DNA of 64,000 bases, from positions 1 through 64,000 of the forward strand of contig NZ_JAUSKL010000030.1 of NCBI RefSeq assembly GCF_030646925.1, written 5' to 3'. How positions within the stretch are numbered: position 1 is the first letter of the stretch; every line of letters starts with the position of its first letter. Below the pieces are notes generated by a model. The model had not been told where the DNA came from, searched no databases, and saw only the letters and a program-made list of their open reading frames with translations. Shown here in pieces: positions 40,883 to 51,513 of this stretch. Source of the DNA: Candidatus Binatus sp. GTDB lineage: Bacteria; Desulfobacterota; Binatia; Binatales; Binataceae. A program made the position numbers and the translations under genes.

Positions 40883-42508
40883 TCAGCCGCGCGCGATCCA
40901 CTCGCCCGCGCGGACGCCGTCGCCGCACCACTTCCCCTCCGCGACCACCGACGTCCCATTCACCAGCACGTGCTCGATTCCGATCGGCTCGATCGCCGGC
41001 GCGGTCGCGTCAGCGCCGCTCGCGATCGTATCAGGATTGAACAGCACCAAATCCGCCGCGTATCCACGACGCACAATGCCGCGCCCCGCAAGCCGCATCC
41101 GCTTCGCGGCCATGCCCGTCGCCTTGTGCACCGCGTCCTCCAGCGTGAGCAGTTTCAACTGGCGCACGTAGTGCCCCATGATGCGCGGATAGGCGCCGAA
41201 GCTCGCCGGATTATGATGCCCATGCGAAGTCAGGATCGTGTCCATCTCGAACAGATTCAGCGGATGGCTCATCGCGGCCCGCAGCGCGTGCTCGTCGGCG
41301 TCATCGCCGCTATATAGATGTATCAGCACGCGCCCGCGCGTTTCGCTCTCGCGCGCGATCGTCAGGTACGCCTCGATCGGATCGACTTTCAGCTCGTCCG
41401 CGATCTCTCCGAAAAATTTGCCCTCGAGATATTTGAGCTCCGGCTTCACCGCCCACATCAACTGGATCGATTCCGCGATAAACTCGCCCAGCGGACGAAA
41501 TCCCTCCTTCAGCCTCGCCCATCCGTCCTTGCTGTCGAGCAGCGCCTCCAGCCCGGTCTGCGACCACGCCGGAAAAATGATCCGAATCGTCGTATTGCCG
41601 CAGGTGTAGGGGAAGGTATCGAACGCGATATCCACGCCGTCATTCCGATGCCGTTCGATTTCGCCCAGCGTCTCGTCGACGGTCTCCCACGTGCGGCGCC
41701 CGACGAAAATCAGATGCGACACCTGCAGTGGCACGCCCGCCTCGCGCGCGACATTCGCCATCTCGCGCACCGCCAGGATGTTGTGCGGAACGCGGCTGTC
41801 GAAAAATAGCGATCGCACCGAGTATGCGCGCAGATGAGACGTCAGCACTCCGCCCGCCGCCGCCGCGACCCGCGCGAGACTCGCAAGCTCCGCCGGCTTC
41901 GCGATCATCCCGGGAAAATATCCAAGCCCCGTCGAAAGCCCGACTGCGCCGTCCGCCATCGCGCGCTCGACCATCGCCTGCATCTCGCGCAACTGCTCGG
42001 CCGACGGCTCGCCCGCGTCGGCGCCCATCACGCTGAGCCTGATACTGCCGTGACCGGCGAGGTGCGCGACGTTGAGCGCGAGCCCCTGCCGCCTGAGCGC
42101 ACCGGCGAAGCCCGCGACCGTGTCCCAGCTCCAATCGAACTTGCGCTCCGCGCACAGCCGTCCCGATTCATCGAGCATCCGCTGCCGCTCGGGTTTTATC
42201 GGCGCCGTCGAAAATCCGCAGTTGCCGCCGACGAATGTGGTAACGCCCTGCATCAGGAACGGCTTCAGGATTTCGCCGTGCTCGGGCGTCGGCACGACCC
42301 AGTCCGAATGCGAATGCAGATCGATAAAGCCCGGCGCGATCACCAGGCCGGTCGCATCGATCTCGCGCGCCGCGGCGATGCTCGACGTATCCGGCGGGGC
42401 CGCGACTTCCGCGATCCTGCGCCCGGCGATCGCGACGTCGGCGCGCACGCGCGGCGCGCCGCTGCCATCGACTACCGTGCCGTTTCGAATGACCAGGTCG
42501 TAGTCCAT
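40883..42508 (-). CDS. N-acyl-D-amino-acid deacylase (D-aminoacylase family)
   Basis: 541 aa amidohydrolase. The zinc motif H65-x-H67 (FIDLHSHSDW) and Cys97 in GNCGFS are the D-aminoacylase markers, together with VTTFVGGNC. Later GHHNPASFGAYPRIMGHYVR and the small-barrel closing domain are present. It removes acyl groups from N-acyl-D-amino acids or related lactams. Standalone gene between repeat clusters. Confidence 0.9.
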   Translation of the reverse strand: MDYDLVIRNGTVVDGSGAPRVRADVAIAGRRIAEVAAPPDTSSIAAAREIDATGLVIAPGFIDLHSHSDWVVPTPEHGEILKPFLMQGVTTFVGGNCGFSTAPIKPERQRMLDESGRLCAERKFDWSWDTVAGFAGALRRQGLALNVAHLAGHGSIRLSVMGADAGEPSAEQLREMQAMVERAMADGAVGLSTGLGYFPGMIAKPAELASLARVAAAAGGVLTSHLRAYSVRSLFFDSRVPHNILAVREMANVAREAGVPLQVSHLIFVGRRTWETVDETLGEIERHRNDGVDIAFDTFPYTCGNTTIRIIFPAWSQTGLEALLDSKDGWARLKEGFRPLGEFIAESIQLMWAVKPELKYLEGKFFGEIADELKVDPIEAYLTIARESETRGRVLIHLYSGDDADEHALRAAMSHPLNLFEMDTILTSHGHHNPASFGAYPRIMGHYVRQLKLLTLEDAVHKATGMAAKRMRLAGRGIVRRGYAADLVLFNPDTIASGADATAPAIEPIGIEHVLVNGTSVVAEGKWCGDGVRAGEWIARG

Positions 42509-43440: not shown

Positions 43441-43941
43441 CTACTTGCGCATTTGACGCAATTGCCGATGCGTCAGCATCCAGCGCAGTTCGCCGCCGCC
43501 GCGATCGAAGCGCGCCGGCAGATCGATCGCGATGCATCCGCCGGTCTTCAGCTTCGCCTGGATCACGTCGCCGGCGCCGGTCAGCACGATCGACGCGATC
43601 GCCGACAGTTGCGGCTCGTGTCCGACGATCATCACGTGATCGTTCTTGGCGAACGCGCGCAGCGCCGCGACCGCGTCCGACGGCGGCACTCCGGTCGCCA
43701 GCGCGGGCAACACTTGCGGCGACGGCGTGTTGTCGTAAGCCGCCGCGACAAGTTCCGCAGTCTCCGTTGCGCGCGCGAGCGGGCTGGTCAAGATCACGTC
43801 GAACTTGAGTTGCATTTCGCGGAACCCGGCCGCCGCTCCAACCATTTTTTCCTTCGATTTTTGCGTGAGCTGCCGCGCGCCGTCGTCGCCGCTCGACGAT
43901 GTTTCTTCGGCAGTCGCGTGGCGCAAAATGTAGAGCATCAT
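43441..43941 (-). CDS. sixA: SixA-type phosphohistidine phosphatase
   Basis: 166 aa histidine-phosphatase fold. Catalytic R7-H8 in YILRHATAEE; substrate-side SPLARATETAEL and VGHEPQLSAIAS with the second His are present. SixA removes phosphate from phosphohistidine on HPt domains or PTS proteins. Last gene of the ppx-TMK-TMK-CHAD-sixA unit; its ATG overlaps the CHAD stop (TGATG). Confidence 0.88.
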   Translation of the reverse strand: MMLYILRHATAEETSSSGDDGARQLTQKSKEKMVGAAAGFREMQLKFDVILTSPLARATETAELVAAAYDNTPSPQVLPALATGVPPSDAVAALRAFAKNDHVMIVGHEPQLSAIASIVLTGAGDVIQAKLKTGGCIAIDLPARFDRGGGELRWMLTHRQLRQMRK

Positions 43942-45047
43942 CAGTGGGTACCTGTCTCGGCCGCCGCTTCCGGGCTGAACTCGGGCGCCGGTTCGACAAT
44001 GGAATTATCGTCCGGCGATTGCGCGTTTGCCTCCGCGCCGCGCGACTCTGCCGCCGCGATCGCCTCGACACCCGTGGCTTCCGGCGCGATCAGGTTCGCC
44101 TCCACCGGCGCGAGTTGCCCGGCGCGCCGAATCTCGTCGAGTGCGTCATCGAGCACGCCGGAGGTTTGGAATTTCCGCCACTCCTTGATCGATTGACGGC
44201 GCAGATTTTTCGCGCGGCTGCCGAGCGAATGGATCAGCGCGCCCGCCGCCAGCACCGTCCGCGCCGGCATCTCGAGGTTGTCCGCGAACGACATCAGCCA
44301 CGCGCCGGTAACGTTGGCGTCGTTATACTCGCCGAGCAGATCTTGCAATTCTTCGAGCCGCGCGAGCGTTTTCTTGTGATTCTTCGCGCCCAGCGCGGAC
44401 AGCATCTCGAGCGCATAGCGAAGCCGCTTCAGTCTCACGCGCAACTTGTGAAAGCCGCGCGGCGGCGATTCGACGTTGAGCTTGCGGCCGCGCTTCTGCG
44501 CGTCTTCGACGATCGGATCGAGCACTTCGTCCGCGATTATCCCGAGCTTGCGCTCGGCCCACGCTTTCTTGAACGACGGCGCCGCGAGTTTTTCGATCAG
44601 TGCGCGATATCGCTTCGATGTCAGCGCCGCGCACAGCGCAGCATGCTCGATGCTTCTCTGATTGGCGAGCGCCGACACGATTGGCTCGATCGATTTGGCG
44701 AGCTCCGGATCGATCTTCTGCGCGCGCTCCTGCACCAGCATCGCCTTGATGTCGCAATCGCGCACCGCGCCCCCCAGTCCGGCGATCCATTTAATTTCGC
44801 GCGTAAAGATTCGCACCTGCGCGGCGTACAAAACTTTTTCGAACACCTGCAGTGAAGCGCGCAGCCGCCGCGACGACACCCGCAACTGATGCATCGCCTC
44901 GGCTTCGCCCTCGATCGCCGCCGGCTGATTGCTCCGCAGCACCACGAGCCCCGCCGCGATTGCCTTGCGCGCGCATTCGCCCGCCTTTTCAGCCGGCGCC
45001 AGCGTCACTTTTCGCGGACGCGAATCGTCGATGCCCGCCTCGGCCAT
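43941..45047 (-). CDS. CHAD-domain protein
   Basis: 368 aa. The core is a CHAD domain (conserved histidine alpha-helical domain) with MHQLRVSSRRLRASL and GFHKLRVRLKRLRYALE repeat helices, rich in Arg/Lys. CHAD domains bind inorganic polyphosphate. The C-terminus from about residue 310 is a low-complexity Ala/Glu tail. Lies between the TMK-like pair and sixA; cotranscription is supported by 4-nt spacing to the kinase gene. Confidence 0.9.
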   Translation of the reverse strand: MAEAGIDDSRPRKVTLAPAEKAGECARKAIAAGLVVLRSNQPAAIEGEAEAMHQLRVSSRRLRASLQVFEKVLYAAQVRIFTREIKWIAGLGGAVRDCDIKAMLVQERAQKIDPELAKSIEPIVSALANQRSIEHAALCAALTSKRYRALIEKLAAPSFKKAWAERKLGIIADEVLDPIVEDAQKRGRKLNVESPPRGFHKLRVRLKRLRYALEMLSALGAKNHKKTLARLEELQDLLGEYNDANVTGAWLMSFADNLEMPARTVLAAGALIHSLGSRAKNLRRQSIKEWRKFQTSGVLDDALDEIRRAGQLAPVEANLIAPEATGVEAIAAAESRGAEANAQSPDDNSIVEPAPEFSPEAAAETGTH

Positions 45048-45050
45048 CAG

Positions 45051-45821
45051 CTATTCCTTGCGCGTCGATGGACCATTCGCGCTCTCAGCCGTGGCTGGCT
45101 CCGCCGCTGGCCCGACCGCTGCGCCGCGCAGGTATTCCGCGATATGCCGGCGCAGTTCCGCCTGAACCTCGTCGGCTGGCGCGCGCGCATCAACCGTGAT
45201 GAAGCCGAACTCGTCTGCCAGCCGCCGATACTCTTCGATCAGCCGGCTCTGGTAGCGCTCGAATGAGTCGAACAGATCGCTGCCGAGCGCGAGATGCATC
45301 CCCGATTCCCAGTAGTCCATGCCCTTGCCCATGATCACGCGCGGGATCAGCGTCTCGACGTCGATATCGAGGTAGAGCACCAGGTCGGGCACCAGCGCCA
45401 TGCCGAACACGTCGCGCGTCCACGCGGGATTCGCGCCCATCACCGTGTTGCGCGCAAACGCGGTGTACATGTAGCGATCCGCGATCACGATAAACCCCGC
45501 TTGCAGCGCAGGCAGAATCTCGTGCTCGAGGCGATCGGCAAAATCCGCCGCATAGAGCAGGCTGAAAGTCGTCACCGTCAATTGATGACCCGCCTTCGCT
45601 TCGTTGATCGTCTCGGAGAGCAGCGGCGACCGCGTCCATCCGGTGTTGCTGACCGCGTAGCCCTCGAGTTCGAGCCACGGCCGCAGCAACTGGATTTGTG
45701 TCGAGCGTCCGACGCCGTCGGTGCCCTCGATCGCGATCAGATGCCCCGGCAGGCGCTTCTTCGCGATGTACGGCAGGCCGTGGCCGTACCAGTTCTTAGC
45801 TTGTGGCGGGCGCGATTCCAT
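45051..45821 (-). CDS. Thymidylate-kinase-like protein with Walker A Lys changed to Arg
   Basis: 256 aa from ATG 45821. Thymidylate kinase fold: P-loop GTDGVGRST at residues 33-41, where the invariant Lys is Arg39 (codon CGC); DRYMYTAFARN carries the DR motif. Its paralogue upstream retains Lys. The Ala/Pro/Glu tail follows the domain. Loss of the P-loop Lys normally cripples ATP hydrolysis, so it may be a pseudokinase partner or bind another ligand. The gene overlaps its paralogue by 26 nt. Confidence 0.85.
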   Translation of the reverse strand: MESRPPQAKNWYGHGLPYIAKKRLPGHLIAIEGTDGVGRSTQIQLLRPWLELEGYAVSNTGWTRSPLLSETINEAKAGHQLTVTTFSLLYAADFADRLEHEILPALQAGFIVIADRYMYTAFARNTVMGANPAWTRDVFGMALVPDLVLYLDIDVETLIPRVIMGKGMDYWESGMHLALGSDLFDSFERYQSRLIEEYRRLADEFGFITVDARAPADEVQAELRRHIAEYLRGAAVGPAAEPATAESANGPSTRKE

Positions 45822-46644
45822 GATTGCCGCGGGCGCGTTGCCGATCGTAGTCGCGCAGAATTTCCTGCACCATCGTGCGCACGATTTTTTGCTGCGCCGG
45901 AATTTCCGCAGTCGCGTCGATCGAACGCATGCCAAATTCAAACGTAAGCTGATCGTAGATCGTTAGCACCCGGCTTTGAAACAGCCGGAAACTCTCGACC
46001 GGATCGGTGGACAGTCCCACGTCCATCCCGGCCTCGTGATACTTCAGCTTGGCGCGGCCCGAGAGCAATCGCTCCAGCGACACGTCGATCGGCACCCTGA
46101 AGTACAACGTGAGATCGGGTCGCAGCGCGCCGCTGTACACCGCCCGCACCCAGTCGGGATGCACCCCGCGCGCCACGTCGCGCGCAAACGCCGTGTACAC
46201 GTATCGATCCGCGAGCACGATCATGCCGGCCTTGAGCGGCGGCAAAATCTGGTAGGTAAATCGATCCGCGAAATCCACCGCGTGCAGCAGGCTGAACGTG
46301 GTCGGCGTCAGCAGGTTCTTTTTCTTGCCGCGCTGCATCGAGTGGCGCACCAGCCGCGACGAATTCCACTCCGTAAAATGCACCGGATAGCCGCGCGACC
46401 GGAGCCATCGTTCGAGCAGCAGCAGTTGCGTCGATTTGCCCGAGCCGTCGATTCCCTCGACCGCGATCAGCCGCCCGGGATACGGATGCGGCGTGTCGAG
46501 CAGGCTCTTCGCCGCGGGCTTGGCCTCGGCTGCGGGCGCGCTCGGGTGACCGTTGGCCGACGGCTCGATCGCCGCTATCGCTGCAGCACCACCTGCCGGT
46601 CCAGCAGTCTCGATAACAGGTCGGTCCTTCTCTCGCATGTCCAT
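45796..46644 (-). CDS. Thymidylate-kinase-like P-loop kinase
   Basis: 282 aa. A 55-residue Ala/Pro-rich N-terminal extension precedes the kinase domain. P-loop GIDGSGKST (64-72), TPTTFSLLHAVDFADR, and DRYVYTAFARD are intact. Length and LID differ from housekeeping Tmk, so dTMP is not assured as substrate. Located directly after a Ppx/GppA gene with 70-nt overlap and before a degenerate paralogue and CHAD, hinting at polyphosphate or nucleotide metabolism (inference). A later non-ATG start could remove the overlap. Confidence 0.83.
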   Translation of the reverse strand: MDMREKDRPVIETAGPAGGAAAIAAIEPSANGHPSAPAAEAKPAAKSLLDTPHPYPGRLIAVEGIDGSGKSTQLLLLERWLRSRGYPVHFTEWNSSRLVRHSMQRGKKKNLLTPTTFSLLHAVDFADRFTYQILPPLKAGMIVLADRYVYTAFARDVARGVHPDWVRAVYSGALRPDLTLYFRVPIDVSLERLLSGRAKLKYHEAGMDVGLSTDPVESFRLFQSRVLTIYDQLTFEFGMRSIDATAEIPAQQKIVRTMVQEILRDYDRQRARGNHGIAPATS

Positions 46645-48089
46645 AGCTCGAGGTCCGCCTTTTCGTTTCCCGAATCGACTCCGATAATCACGCGCCCGGG
46701 CGAGTAGCTCACCCCAATATCCTTAACCACGCCGAAGTGCGTCCGATCCAGCGCGTCGGCGACTCGAAGAATCGCGGCCAGACCTCGCACCACGCGGCGT
46801 CGCGCGGGATTCAGCGCCTTCAAGTCGGGCGAATCGAGCTTCGGCGCTTGCTTGCGATGACCCCGCGCGGCTTGCGCGATCACTTCGATTTCGTCCGGAT
46901 CGAAGCCGAATAATTCCGCGTTGCGGATCAAGTAGTAAGAATGGCGATTGTGCCGATCGTGATCAATGGCATGCCCGATATCGTGCAAAAGCGCCGCAAA
47001 TTCGAGTAGTTCCCGCGAGGCTTTCGGCAATCCCAGCACCGGCGCGGTCGCGTCGAACAGCGTCAGCGCCAGCTTCGCGACTTGCTTGCCGTGCTTGTTG
47101 GCGCCCGCGAATCGCGACGACAATGCATTCACCGATCTCCGCCGCGAATCGCTCGCCGAGTGCGAATCGATCCCGCGCGCGAGTCCCAGCAGCACCCCCT
47201 CGCGCAGCGCCCATGTGCACGCCACCAGCTCCGGCGCCCCCGATTTCCGCATCACGTAGTTCACCAGCGTCGCCGCCGCCGGCATCAGGTCCGCGCGCTT
47301 CGCATCCATCCCCGGCAACTCGACGCGCATCGCGGCATTCGCCTCGACCAGGTCGCGCTTCAGCTCCGCGATCTCGCCCGCCGACGCGCTCGCGCCATGC
47401 AGCCGTCCGAGCTCCTCGCCGCGCGCCGCACGCGCCATCGCGACCAGCGTGTTGATCGTCCCCGACGTTCCCACCGCGCGCACCACGCCGGCCTTGCGCG
47501 TCGCGCGCATCAGCGTGCCGATCTCGCGCTCGAGATGCGCTTCCAGCCGCGCGAGTTGTGCGCGAGTTGGCGGATCGTCGCCGAAGAATCGCTCCGCGAG
47601 CCGCGCCACCCCCAGCTTCACGCTGCGCATCCACAGCGGGCGCCCGTCGCGCACCAGCACCAACTCCACGCTGCCGCCGCCCACATCGACCAGCAGATGC
47701 GGCCCGCCGTCGAGCCCGAGCGCATGATGCGCCGCCTGAAAAATCAGCCGCGCTTCGTCGAGTCCCGAAATGATCTCGACCGTCAGTCCGGTCTCGCGCT
47801 TGATGCGCGCGATAAAATCCGCGCGATTGCGCGCCTCGCGCACTGCGCTGGTCGCCACCGCCCGCAGCCGATCCACCTTGCGCATGCGCGCGAGCCGCTT
47901 GAAGTTCACCAGCGCGCGCACCGCCAGATCCATCGCTTCCGGCGTCAGCCGCCCCGTGGTGAATGAGCGCCGCCCCAGCCGCACCATCTCCTTCACCCGA
48001 TCGACGACTTCGATATGCCCTTCGCGCGACACCTCGGCGACCAGCATATGAACCGAATTTGAACCGACGTCGATCGCAGCAAGACGCAT
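46575..48089 (-). CDS. Exopolyphosphatase / guanosine pentaphosphatase (Ppx/GppA)
   Basis: 504 aa from ATG 48089 (MRLAAIDVGSNSVHMLVAEV). Acetate/sugar-kinase/Hsp70 ATPase fold with phosphate loops DVGSNSVHM, VDVGGGSVELVL and VGTSGTINTL, then a C-terminal HD-like domain (HDIGHAIDHDRHNRHSYYLI). It removes terminal phosphate from inorganic polyphosphate and/or converts pppGpp to ppGpp. First gene of the five-gene unit. Confidence 0.9.
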   Translation of the reverse strand: MRLAAIDVGSNSVHMLVAEVSREGHIEVVDRVKEMVRLGRRSFTTGRLTPEAMDLAVRALVNFKRLARMRKVDRLRAVATSAVREARNRADFIARIKRETGLTVEIISGLDEARLIFQAAHHALGLDGGPHLLVDVGGGSVELVLVRDGRPLWMRSVKLGVARLAERFFGDDPPTRAQLARLEAHLEREIGTLMRATRKAGVVRAVGTSGTINTLVAMARAARGEELGRLHGASASAGEIAELKRDLVEANAAMRVELPGMDAKRADLMPAAATLVNYVMRKSGAPELVACTWALREGVLLGLARGIDSHSASDSRRRSVNALSSRFAGANKHGKQVAKLALTLFDATAPVLGLPKASRELLEFAALLHDIGHAIDHDRHNRHSYYLIRNAELFGFDPDEIEVIAQAARGHRKQAPKLDSPDLKALNPARRRVVRGLAAILRVADALDRTHFGVVKDIGVSYSPGRVIIGVDSGNEKADLELWTCERRTDLLSRLLDRQVVLQR

Positions 48090-48216
48090 CGCATGCAAAG
48101 GTTAGCCGTCCGATCAGGCGATGTCATCTCGATCGATCGCGCATCGCGAAAAATTCGGCGATCGCCGCGGCGCTCGGCGTGAAATGAATGTTACGCTGCG
48201 ACGATCAAGTCGCGTG

Positions 48217-50874: not shown

Positions 50875-51513
50875 TCAGCTCTTGCGCGGGACGAAGTATT
50901 GAGTGCCGGGGCCAGCATCGTCGATCTCGCGGATCAGGCTGGCGAGGTCCTCGGGATTCGCGACGAAATCGATCTCCGAAGTATCGACCACCAGCAGCGG
51001 CGCTTCGTCGTAGTAGAAAAAGAAATCGCGATACGCCACCGAGACGCGCTCGAGATACTCGAAACTGATGTGCCGCTCGAAATCGCGATTGCGCTTGCGG
51101 AGCCGCTCGCCCAGAACCTCGATCGTAGCGCGCACGTACACCACAAGGTCCGGCTTTTTCATCTCGGCGTCGAGCAATTTGTAAACGCCGTCGTAGAGCT
51201 TCAGCTCGTCGGGCGCGAGATTCATGGTCGCGAAGATTCGATCCTTGGCAAAGAGATAGTCGGCGACGGTTGCGGGCGCGAATAGATCCTGCTGCAGCAG
51301 TTCGCGCTGCTGATGATGCCGCGTCAGCAGGAAATAAAGCTGCGCCGGGAACGCGTACTTGTCGGGATCCTGGTAGAAGCGCGCGAGGAACGGATTGTTG
51401 TCCGCATCCTCGAGAATCAGGCGCGCCTTGAGCTCGCGGCTGAGTGCCTGCGCGAGGCTGGTCTTGCCGACTCCGATGGGACCTTCGACTGCGATATAGC
51501 CGCGCGAGCGCAT
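50875..51513 (-). CDS. Deoxynucleoside kinase
   Basis: 212 aa, dNK/dGK family. P-loop GPIGVGKTSLAQ (residues 11-22), LEDADNNPFLARFYQDP and the ERLRKRNRDFE LID-like segment are typical for bacterial deoxyadenosine/deoxyguanosine kinases. It phosphorylates salvaged deoxynucleosides. It is separate from the TMK-like genes of the 44-46 kb unit. Confidence 0.88.
   Translation of the reverse strand: MRSRGYIAVEGPIGVGKTSLAQALSRELKARLILEDADNNPFLARFYQDPDKYAFPAQLYFLLTRHHQQRELLQQDLFAPATVADYLFAKDRIFATMNLAPDELKLYDGVYKLLDAEMKKPDLVVYVRATIEVLGERLRKRNRDFERHISFEYLERVSVAYRDFFFYYDEAPLLVVDTSEIDFVANPEDLASLIREIDDAGPGTQYFVPRKS

Follow-up and report, generated by a model that had tools for sequence, protein, structure and literature searches.

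Paired thymidylate kinase-fold proteins in a polyphosphate-linked operon of Candidatus Binatus and their distribution in bacteria

A 64,000-nucleotide stretch of DNA from Candidatus Binatus sp. (assembly GCF_030646925.1, contig NZ_JAUSKL010000030.1, positions 1 to 64,000; hereafter the window) carries, at 43441-48089 on the minus strand, five intact and tightly packed open reading frames (ORFs): ppx, genes for two proteins of the thymidylate kinase (TMK) fold, here called TMK1 and TMK2, a CHAD-domain gene and sixA. An earlier reading of the same DNA, made without database searches (the sequence-only reading), had tied this set to inorganic polyphosphate (polyP), and both the linkage of the pair to ppx and CHAD and its co-occurrence with polyP genes in other genomes support that. 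On these comparisons we lean towards reading the operon as a polyP module with a heteromeric TMK-fold polyP kinase, in which TMK1 would be the active subunit and TMK2 a pseudokinase-like partner.

In the proposed mechanism TMK1 and TMK2 would form a heteromer, probably a heterodimer by analogy with dimeric TMKs. TMK1 would bind ATP in its intact P-loop and move the gamma-phosphate to a polyP chain lying in a basic groove, at the place where a dTMP kinase has its deoxythymidine monophosphate (dTMP) pocket. The reaction would be reversible, with ATP also made from ADP and polyP. TMK2 would shape or regulate the site, PPX would trim the polymer, the CHAD protein would hold the enzymes on polyP granules, and SixA would be an accessory part of the operon.

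Two kinase paralogues with different Walker motifs

A collection of species genomes was searched with the TMK1 alignment, which gave at least 452 confirmed stretches; the best 80, all bacterial by record title, were analysed. Together with two loci from other genomes of the window's phylum (G027 and G063) and the window itself, they make up the 83 loci compared here, 32 of which are from Nitrospirota. The 80 were fetched by the TMK1 motifs V[FHY][FL]TEWNS or K[YFP][HQ]EAG[MA]D, which makes the conservation of both motifs in TMK1 a product of the selection; the counts given below for the Walker motif, the Phe substitution, DRY and TMK2 are independent of them. The sequence-only reading depended on a neighbourhood kept beyond close strains, and by record title the 83 loci do span ten phyla: Nitrospirota, Omnitrophota, Binatota, Ignavibacteriota, Planctomycetota, Gemmatimonadota, Armatimonadota, Acidobacteriota, Eiseniibacteriota and Bacteroidota. 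Three further stretches are unplaced, and another 20 are titled Deltaproteobacteria, Betaproteobacteria or Proteobacteria; the similarity of their TMK proteins suggests that these 20 can be grouped with the three Binatota stretches and the window as "Binatota-type". The records are mostly metagenome-assembled genomes, and the phyla represented by one locus depend on binning. Among 148 genomes of the window's own phylum, strong double matches were found in three (its own, G027 and G063). At E 1e-5 the search matched 120 genomes in all, and the hits outside these three are weak and resemble ordinary dTMP kinases.

The two proteins differ in the Walker A motif. TMK1 has the intact form, GIDGSGKST, and TMK2 has GTDGVGRST, with Lys changed to Arg. 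By alignment this residue is Lys in 83/83 TMK1 proteins and Arg in 83/83 TMK2 proteins (82/83 by direct pattern, because the start picked for the TMK2 of L063 cuts the motif), and TMK1 retains the DRY motif along with the Walker Lys at every locus. The sequence-only reading had called TMK2 degenerate, which now looks too strong: its fold is complete in the AlphaFold model despite the replaced Lys, and the Arg is fixed. From the alignments, TMK2 is best described as a conserved second member, not a decaying copy. TMK2 also has an N-terminal motif of its own, (F/W)YGxGLPY (window positions ~45800-45770), which is not in TMK1; in the 39 rows aligned its first Gly is invariant and its last Tyr nearly so.

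Both proteins have lost residues that canonical dTMP kinases keep. In canonical enzymes thymine is contacted by the Arg of an LFxxDR motif and by the Gln of an AYQ motif. That Arg, present in 28/28 canonical sequences, is Phe in all 83 TMK1 proteins and in 81 of the 83 TMK2 proteins, the other two having Leu. The position four residues before it, aromatic in canonical enzymes (F 21, Y 6 and V 1 of 28), holds His in every TMK1 (83/83) and Tyr in every TMK2 (83/83). AYQ (Y 28/28, Q 28/28) has become ARD in TMK1 (R 83/83, D 83/83). In the neighbouring segment TMK1 carries a basic GKK loop, with a mean net charge of +3.9, against +1.1 in TMK2 and -0.2 in canonical enzymes. This pattern would be consistent with a polyP groove in place of the dTMP pocket. 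With the thymine-binding residues missing, TMK1 and TMK2 are probably not plain dTMP kinases, and on this point the sequence-only reading holds up.

The family and structure comparisons place both proteins in the TMK fold and close to one archaeal protein. Pfam matched both to PF02223 Thymidylate_kin (TMK1 2.9e-19, TMK2 3.9e-20), and both fell under the cut-off of 83.25 for the TIGR00041 dTMP kinase equivalog, TMK2 narrowly at 82.2 and TMK1 at 72.1. Neither matched the PPK2 domain PF03976 (Pfam, E 0.001). Against the PDB, the best match of each is ST1543 of Sulfolobus tokodaii (2plr), at 195 bits for TMK1, with the next dTMP kinase chain at 55, and at 145 bits for TMK2, with the next chain at 52. 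AlphaFold (AF2) models, built on 39-row alignments of window and locus proteins, reached a mean predicted local distance difference test (pLDDT) score of 91.0 for TMK1 and 88.2 for TMK2, and ST1543 entries ranked first for both in Foldseek. In VIA-align, run for TMK1, Z was 28.0 against ST1543 (5h70, ADP-bound) and 23.9 against the next entry that is not ST1543. By sequence and fold, then, ST1543 (PDB 2plr, 4nzy, 4rzx, 5h70) is the closest solved structure to both members, and the one ST1543 sequence compared shares the TEWNSS, KK, DF(S/A)DR and ARD motifs with TMK1. PPK2 structures were not among the best 50 rows of each structure comparison, a result that is uninformative on distant fold kinship.

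A maximum-likelihood tree of 85 rows (27 TMK1, 27 TMK2, 12 from the second clade described below, 18 canonical and ST1543, drawn from 27/83 loci and 18/28 canonical rows) separates TMK1, TMK2 and ST1543 from canonical dTMP kinases with an SH-like approximate likelihood-ratio test (SH-aLRT) value of 100. TMK1 forms a single clade (SH-aLRT 91), as does TMK2 (97). The tree was built by a quick method and long branches were flagged, and the exact placement of ST1543 is unsure. The distances within TMK1 and those within TMK2 are also correlated (mirror-tree r 0.93, 3403 locus pairs); this was set aside, as co-inheritance predicts it.

The Nitrospirota hold a second version of the pair. At E 1e-20 the TMK1 alignment matched 42 of 118 Nitrospirota genomes: 28 have two strong matches (at least 200 bits), 14 have one weak match (75-84 bits), and a single strong TMK1-type match was found in 0/118. 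In one of the 28 pair genomes (G305) the two matches lie ~38 kb apart. A second, lower-scoring clade accounts for 17 of the 28, and a chosen sample of nine of its loci was fetched (L127-L131, L134-L137); in these the order of the pair is reversed. The TMK2-side copy, sister to TMK2 in the tree (SH-aLRT 91; six rows placed), retains the Walker Lys, and its DRY motif reads EQY, in 9/9 examined. The TMK1-side copy keeps DRY in the six loci where the motif was located (6/6), the frames of the other three being unsettled. Judging by these motifs, the partner appears to have been kept while losing catalytic residues in two distinct ways, which fits a pseudokinase partner.

Linkage and co-occurrence with polyphosphate genes

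TMK1 adjoins TMK2 in 83/83 loci, and the pair is closely linked to ppx, which lies within 5 kb in 77/83 and touches the pair on the same strand in 72/83. Within the same distance SixA was found in 54/83 loci, CHAD in 33/83, PhoU in 9/83 and PPK2 in 4/83. These neighbour counts come from purpose-built profiles, uncorrected for contig ends, and are lower bounds. Pfam was run on ten neighbour proteins taken from L034, L035 and L139, and all nine that a profile had named matched the expected family: PPK2, CHAD (three), His_Phos_1 (two), PhoU (two) and Ppx-GppA. The remaining protein is of the helix-hairpin-helix type. The six loci where ppx was not found are L043, L046, L049, L050, L061 and L080, some of which reach a contig end. 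The order around the pair differs between loci (ppx-pair, sixA-pair-ppx, CHAD-pair), and such variation points to selection maintaining the association. Gene fusions were found in none of the 83 loci, and clustering of conserved neighbours, with antisense frames mixed in, gave nothing beyond the known families.

In the G063 cluster, a small Lys-rich helix-hairpin-helix protein (PF14520, 4.4e-6), perhaps granule-associated, is encoded between sixA and TMK1 (L035:6156-6683, minus strand). The same cluster has a two-domain PPK2 at L035:251-1744.

The 118 Nitrospirota genomes were sorted by presence of the pair and of PPK1, and the groups were compared by Fisher tests, which ignore shared ancestry. 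CHAD, PPK2 and a long ppx were found respectively in 9, 18 and 22 of the 24 genomes with the pair and without PPK1, in 3, 4 and 4 of the four with both, in 6, 8 and 7 of the nine with PPK1 and without the pair, and in 1, 7 and 6 of the 81 with neither. Between pair-only genomes and those with neither, the phylogenetically uncorrected p values are 3.7e-6 for CHAD, 5e-10 for PPK2 and 4e-15 for long ppx, and the PPK1-only genomes resemble the pair genomes. The pair accompanies polyP machinery as PPK1 does. One counted CHAD match (G241) falls under the Pfam cut-off.

Long ppx means a Ppx match of at least 100 bits in an open frame of at least 480 aa, among the matches listed. The rule drops weak matches (49-77 bits, long frames) in G237, G249, G276 and G293, all genomes with neither pair nor PPK1, and including them raises that group to 10/81. 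Plain Ppx-GppA presence was set aside as a test: matches occur in 104/118 genomes, presence alone is therefore uninformative, and long ppx was used instead. Two relatives (G252 and G312) have a PhoU-PPX-SixA-CHAD locus without the pair, and both carry PPK1.

Fifty pair genomes, a chosen sample from the 80 and mostly drafts, were searched for known polyP kinases. PPK1 was matched in 12 and not in 38, PPK2 in 28, and neither in 18. Among the 28 Nitrospirota pair genomes, PPK2 was matched in 22. The complete genome of Nitrospira moscoviensis has ppx, CHAD and PPK2 matches and no PPK1 match.

Known systems and competing explanations

The sequence-only reading knew of no described system with this exact set. 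Part of that stands: no paper on the bacterial pair was recognised in the literature searched, which was mostly without subscription papers and preprints, and it is quite likely that Hofmann et al. (cited below) treat bacteria too. The combination itself has a partial precedent: the Fig. 2 legend of PMC10892726 (2024) draws SixA, PPX, dTMP kinase and CHAD together, with ProC, as the one CHAD context shared by the biomining archaea analysed there. The accessible sections of that paper assign no role to the dTMP kinase. PMC6537752 reports that CHAD domains bind polyP and that several sit in polyP gene clusters. A crenarchaeal polyP synthase was recently characterised in Sulfolobus acidocaldarius by Hofmann et al. 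(2024 bioRxiv 10.1101/2024.08.28.610084; 2026 JBC 302:111283), according to PMC11677633, and PMC13318637 cites it as a family 3 polyphosphate kinase (PPK), a distinct PPK-type enzyme. Family 3 PPK comes from archaea whose CHAD cluster, as drawn in that figure, has SixA, PPX and a "dTMP kinase". The bacterial pair is probably of the same kind, a likeness drawn from titles and not from sequence; it differs in being bacterial, in ten phyla by record title, and in combining a presumed active member with a Walker-Arg member.

Two other systems offer comparisons. The PPK2 family consists of P-loop kinases acting on polyP, and tandem versions with one inactive domain have been reported; like them, the pair would be a P-loop kinase on polyP, whereas TMK1 and TMK2 are without PF03976. 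In the E. coli ppk-ppx operon the synthase gene stands beside ppx, and PPK1 is unrelated to the TMK pair; here the slot beside ppx is held by the pair.

We advance a wider proposal more tentatively, as a possibility and not an expectation: that an active TMK-fold subunit with an obligate pseudokinase partner, impaired by two routes, may be what makes polyP in many bacteria that lack PPK1, among them Nitrospira and Omnitrophota, and may at present be taken for two dTMP kinases. If true, apparent spare dTMP kinases would be a third polyP route in several bacterial phyla, including the nitrite-oxidising Nitrospira. The presence of polyP machinery in PPK1-less genomes would then be accounted for, the systems of bacteria and archaea would be connected, and there would be a clear-cut case of nucleotide kinases in which an active member is paired with a pseudokinase. 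Predictions of polyP capacity from genomes would be unreliable where they look for PPK1 and PPK2 alone.

Several observations weigh against a polyP kinase. The Candidatus Binatus genome also carries PPK1 and PPK2, and the pair is therefore not its only candidate synthase. PPK1 was matched in 10/12 Binatota-type pair genomes, compared with 2/38 others, one of these (G164) being a partial match of 58 bits. The idea that the pair replaces PPK1 was dropped, as exclusivity is unsupported in Nitrospirota (4/28 versus 9/90, p 0.50) and the window's own genome has both. Five Nitrospirota genomes (G206, G307, G314, G303 and G289; loci L141-L145) combine a long ppx and PPK2 with no match to either the pair or PPK1. 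Seven of the 50 pair genomes (G149, G161, G166, G168, G175, G184 and G197) gave no canonical tmk match of at least 130 bits, and there the pair or another enzyme would therefore have to supply deoxythymidine diphosphate. One of them, G175 (L077), is the complete chromosome of N. moscoviensis, where the dTMP kinase matches are the pair members only, at 75.9 and 67.6 bits. ST1543, the nearest solved structure, is titled a dTMP kinase in the PDB. An archaeal thymidylate kinase from S. tokodaii is also the subject of a published title. Finally, the step from the S. acidocaldarius family 3 PPK to the TMK-like, ST1543-like protein of the Sulfolobales CHAD cluster is a provisional identification.

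The explanation that survives best beside a polyP-making pair is that the pair consumes polyP, as a nucleotide kinase in the PPK2-like direction (NMP/NDP from polyP), with PPK1 or PPK2 making the polymer. Linkage to ppx, CHAD and PPK2 fits it equally well, PPK2 lies near the pair at four of the loci, and the window's own genome already has PPK1. We consider it unlikely: the 18 pair genomes with neither PPK1 nor PPK2 matched, mostly drafts, would lack a supplier of polyP; a second consumer would be redundant where PPK2 co-occurs with the pair, as in most Nitrospirota pair genomes; and the P-loop of TMK1 is intact at all 83 loci.

It is quite improbable that the two proteins are dTMP or other nucleotide kinases placed beside ppx for nucleotide economy. 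The TMK fold, the Pfam family, the PDB titles of ST1543 and the seven genomes without a canonical tmk match, one of them complete, would all suit such enzymes. Both scores nevertheless lie under the TIGR00041 cut-off, one of them narrowly, and at all 83 loci other residues stand in place of the thymine contacts. Apart from the pair, a canonical tmk match (at least 130 bits) is present in 43/50 pair genomes, and in the window's own genome a canonical dTMP kinase elsewhere (C90) scores 171 bits, compared with 73 for TMK2 and 71 for TMK1. The sequence-only reading had also named (p)ppGpp as a possible substrate of the TMK folds; nothing in favour of it turned up, and no test aimed at (p)ppGpp was made.

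A regulatory or sensor complex, in which the pair is a nucleotide-binding switch on PPX, CHAD or PhoU without polyP kinase activity of its own, would suit a subunit impaired in two different ways and the PhoU genes near nine pairs, but is very improbable, given that TMK1 keeps the Walker Lys and DRY everywhere and that the 18 genomes without a PPK1 or PPK2 match would have no known polyP synthase. Altogether, the operon is real, widespread and unusual, and the pair is best read as a bacterial, two-membered version of a kind of enzyme that is probably known already, with a predicted activity.

Layout of the operon and its surroundings

Table 1. Genes of the Candidatus Binatus operon (coordinates in the window).
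Gene or product	Coordinates	Strand	Length	Description
ppx	46575..48089	-	504 aa	Long Ppx/GppA + domain III/HD type exopolyphosphatase
TMK1	45796..46644	-	282 aa	TMK-fold kinase, ST1543-type; proposed catalytic subunit
TMK2	45051..45821	-	256 aa	TMK1 paralogue, Walker-A Lys to Arg; proposed non-catalytic partner
CHAD-domain protein	43941..45047	-	368 aa	Proposed polyphosphate/granule-binding component
SixA-like short histidine phosphatase	43441..43941	-	166 aa	PF00300 match; TIGR00249 score equal to the cut-off

The five minus-strand genes with overlaps or gaps of a few bases, as first described, were confirmed by ORFs, Pfam and coordinates. By coordinates ppx and TMK1 overlap by 70 nt, TMK1 and TMK2 by 26 nt, and CHAD and sixA by 1 nt, and 3 nt separate TMK2 from CHAD; the 70-nt and 26-nt overlaps are repeated in relatives, e.g. 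L039 and L054. With these overlaps and the 3-nt gap, co-transcription and translational coupling of the five genes are likely. The ATG at 48089 was taken as the ppx start, and a TTG upstream at 48098 is also possible. The TMK2 ORF from 45941 is over-extended, and homologues fit the ATG at 45821.

The ppx product matched PF02541 Ppx-GppA (3.3e-66, 224.1 bits, cut-off 27), PF21447 (6e-29) and HD (7.8e-11). Its score for TIGR03706 exo_poly_only, 283.9 bits, is under the cut-off of 307, so it is likely, not certain, to be a Ppx rather than a GppA. The CHAD protein matched PF05235 (3.4e-46, 158.5 bits, cut-off 25.6). The sixA product matched PF00300 His_Phos_1 (5.1e-9) and TIGR00249 at 74.5 bits, equal to the printed cut-off of 74.5.

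The transcription unit is probably these five genes, because a divergent major facilitator superfamily gene (48121, plus strand) lies upstream of ppx and the next family-matched minus-strand gene downstream, an amidohydrolase (40883-42508), is ~930 nt beyond sixA. A sigma-70 consensus scan found 0 promoter-like sites (0.9 in shuffles), a result of little weight in this organism. A deoxynucleoside kinase gene (PF01712, 133.7 bits) lies at 50875-51513 on the minus strand, a few kb upstream of the operon.

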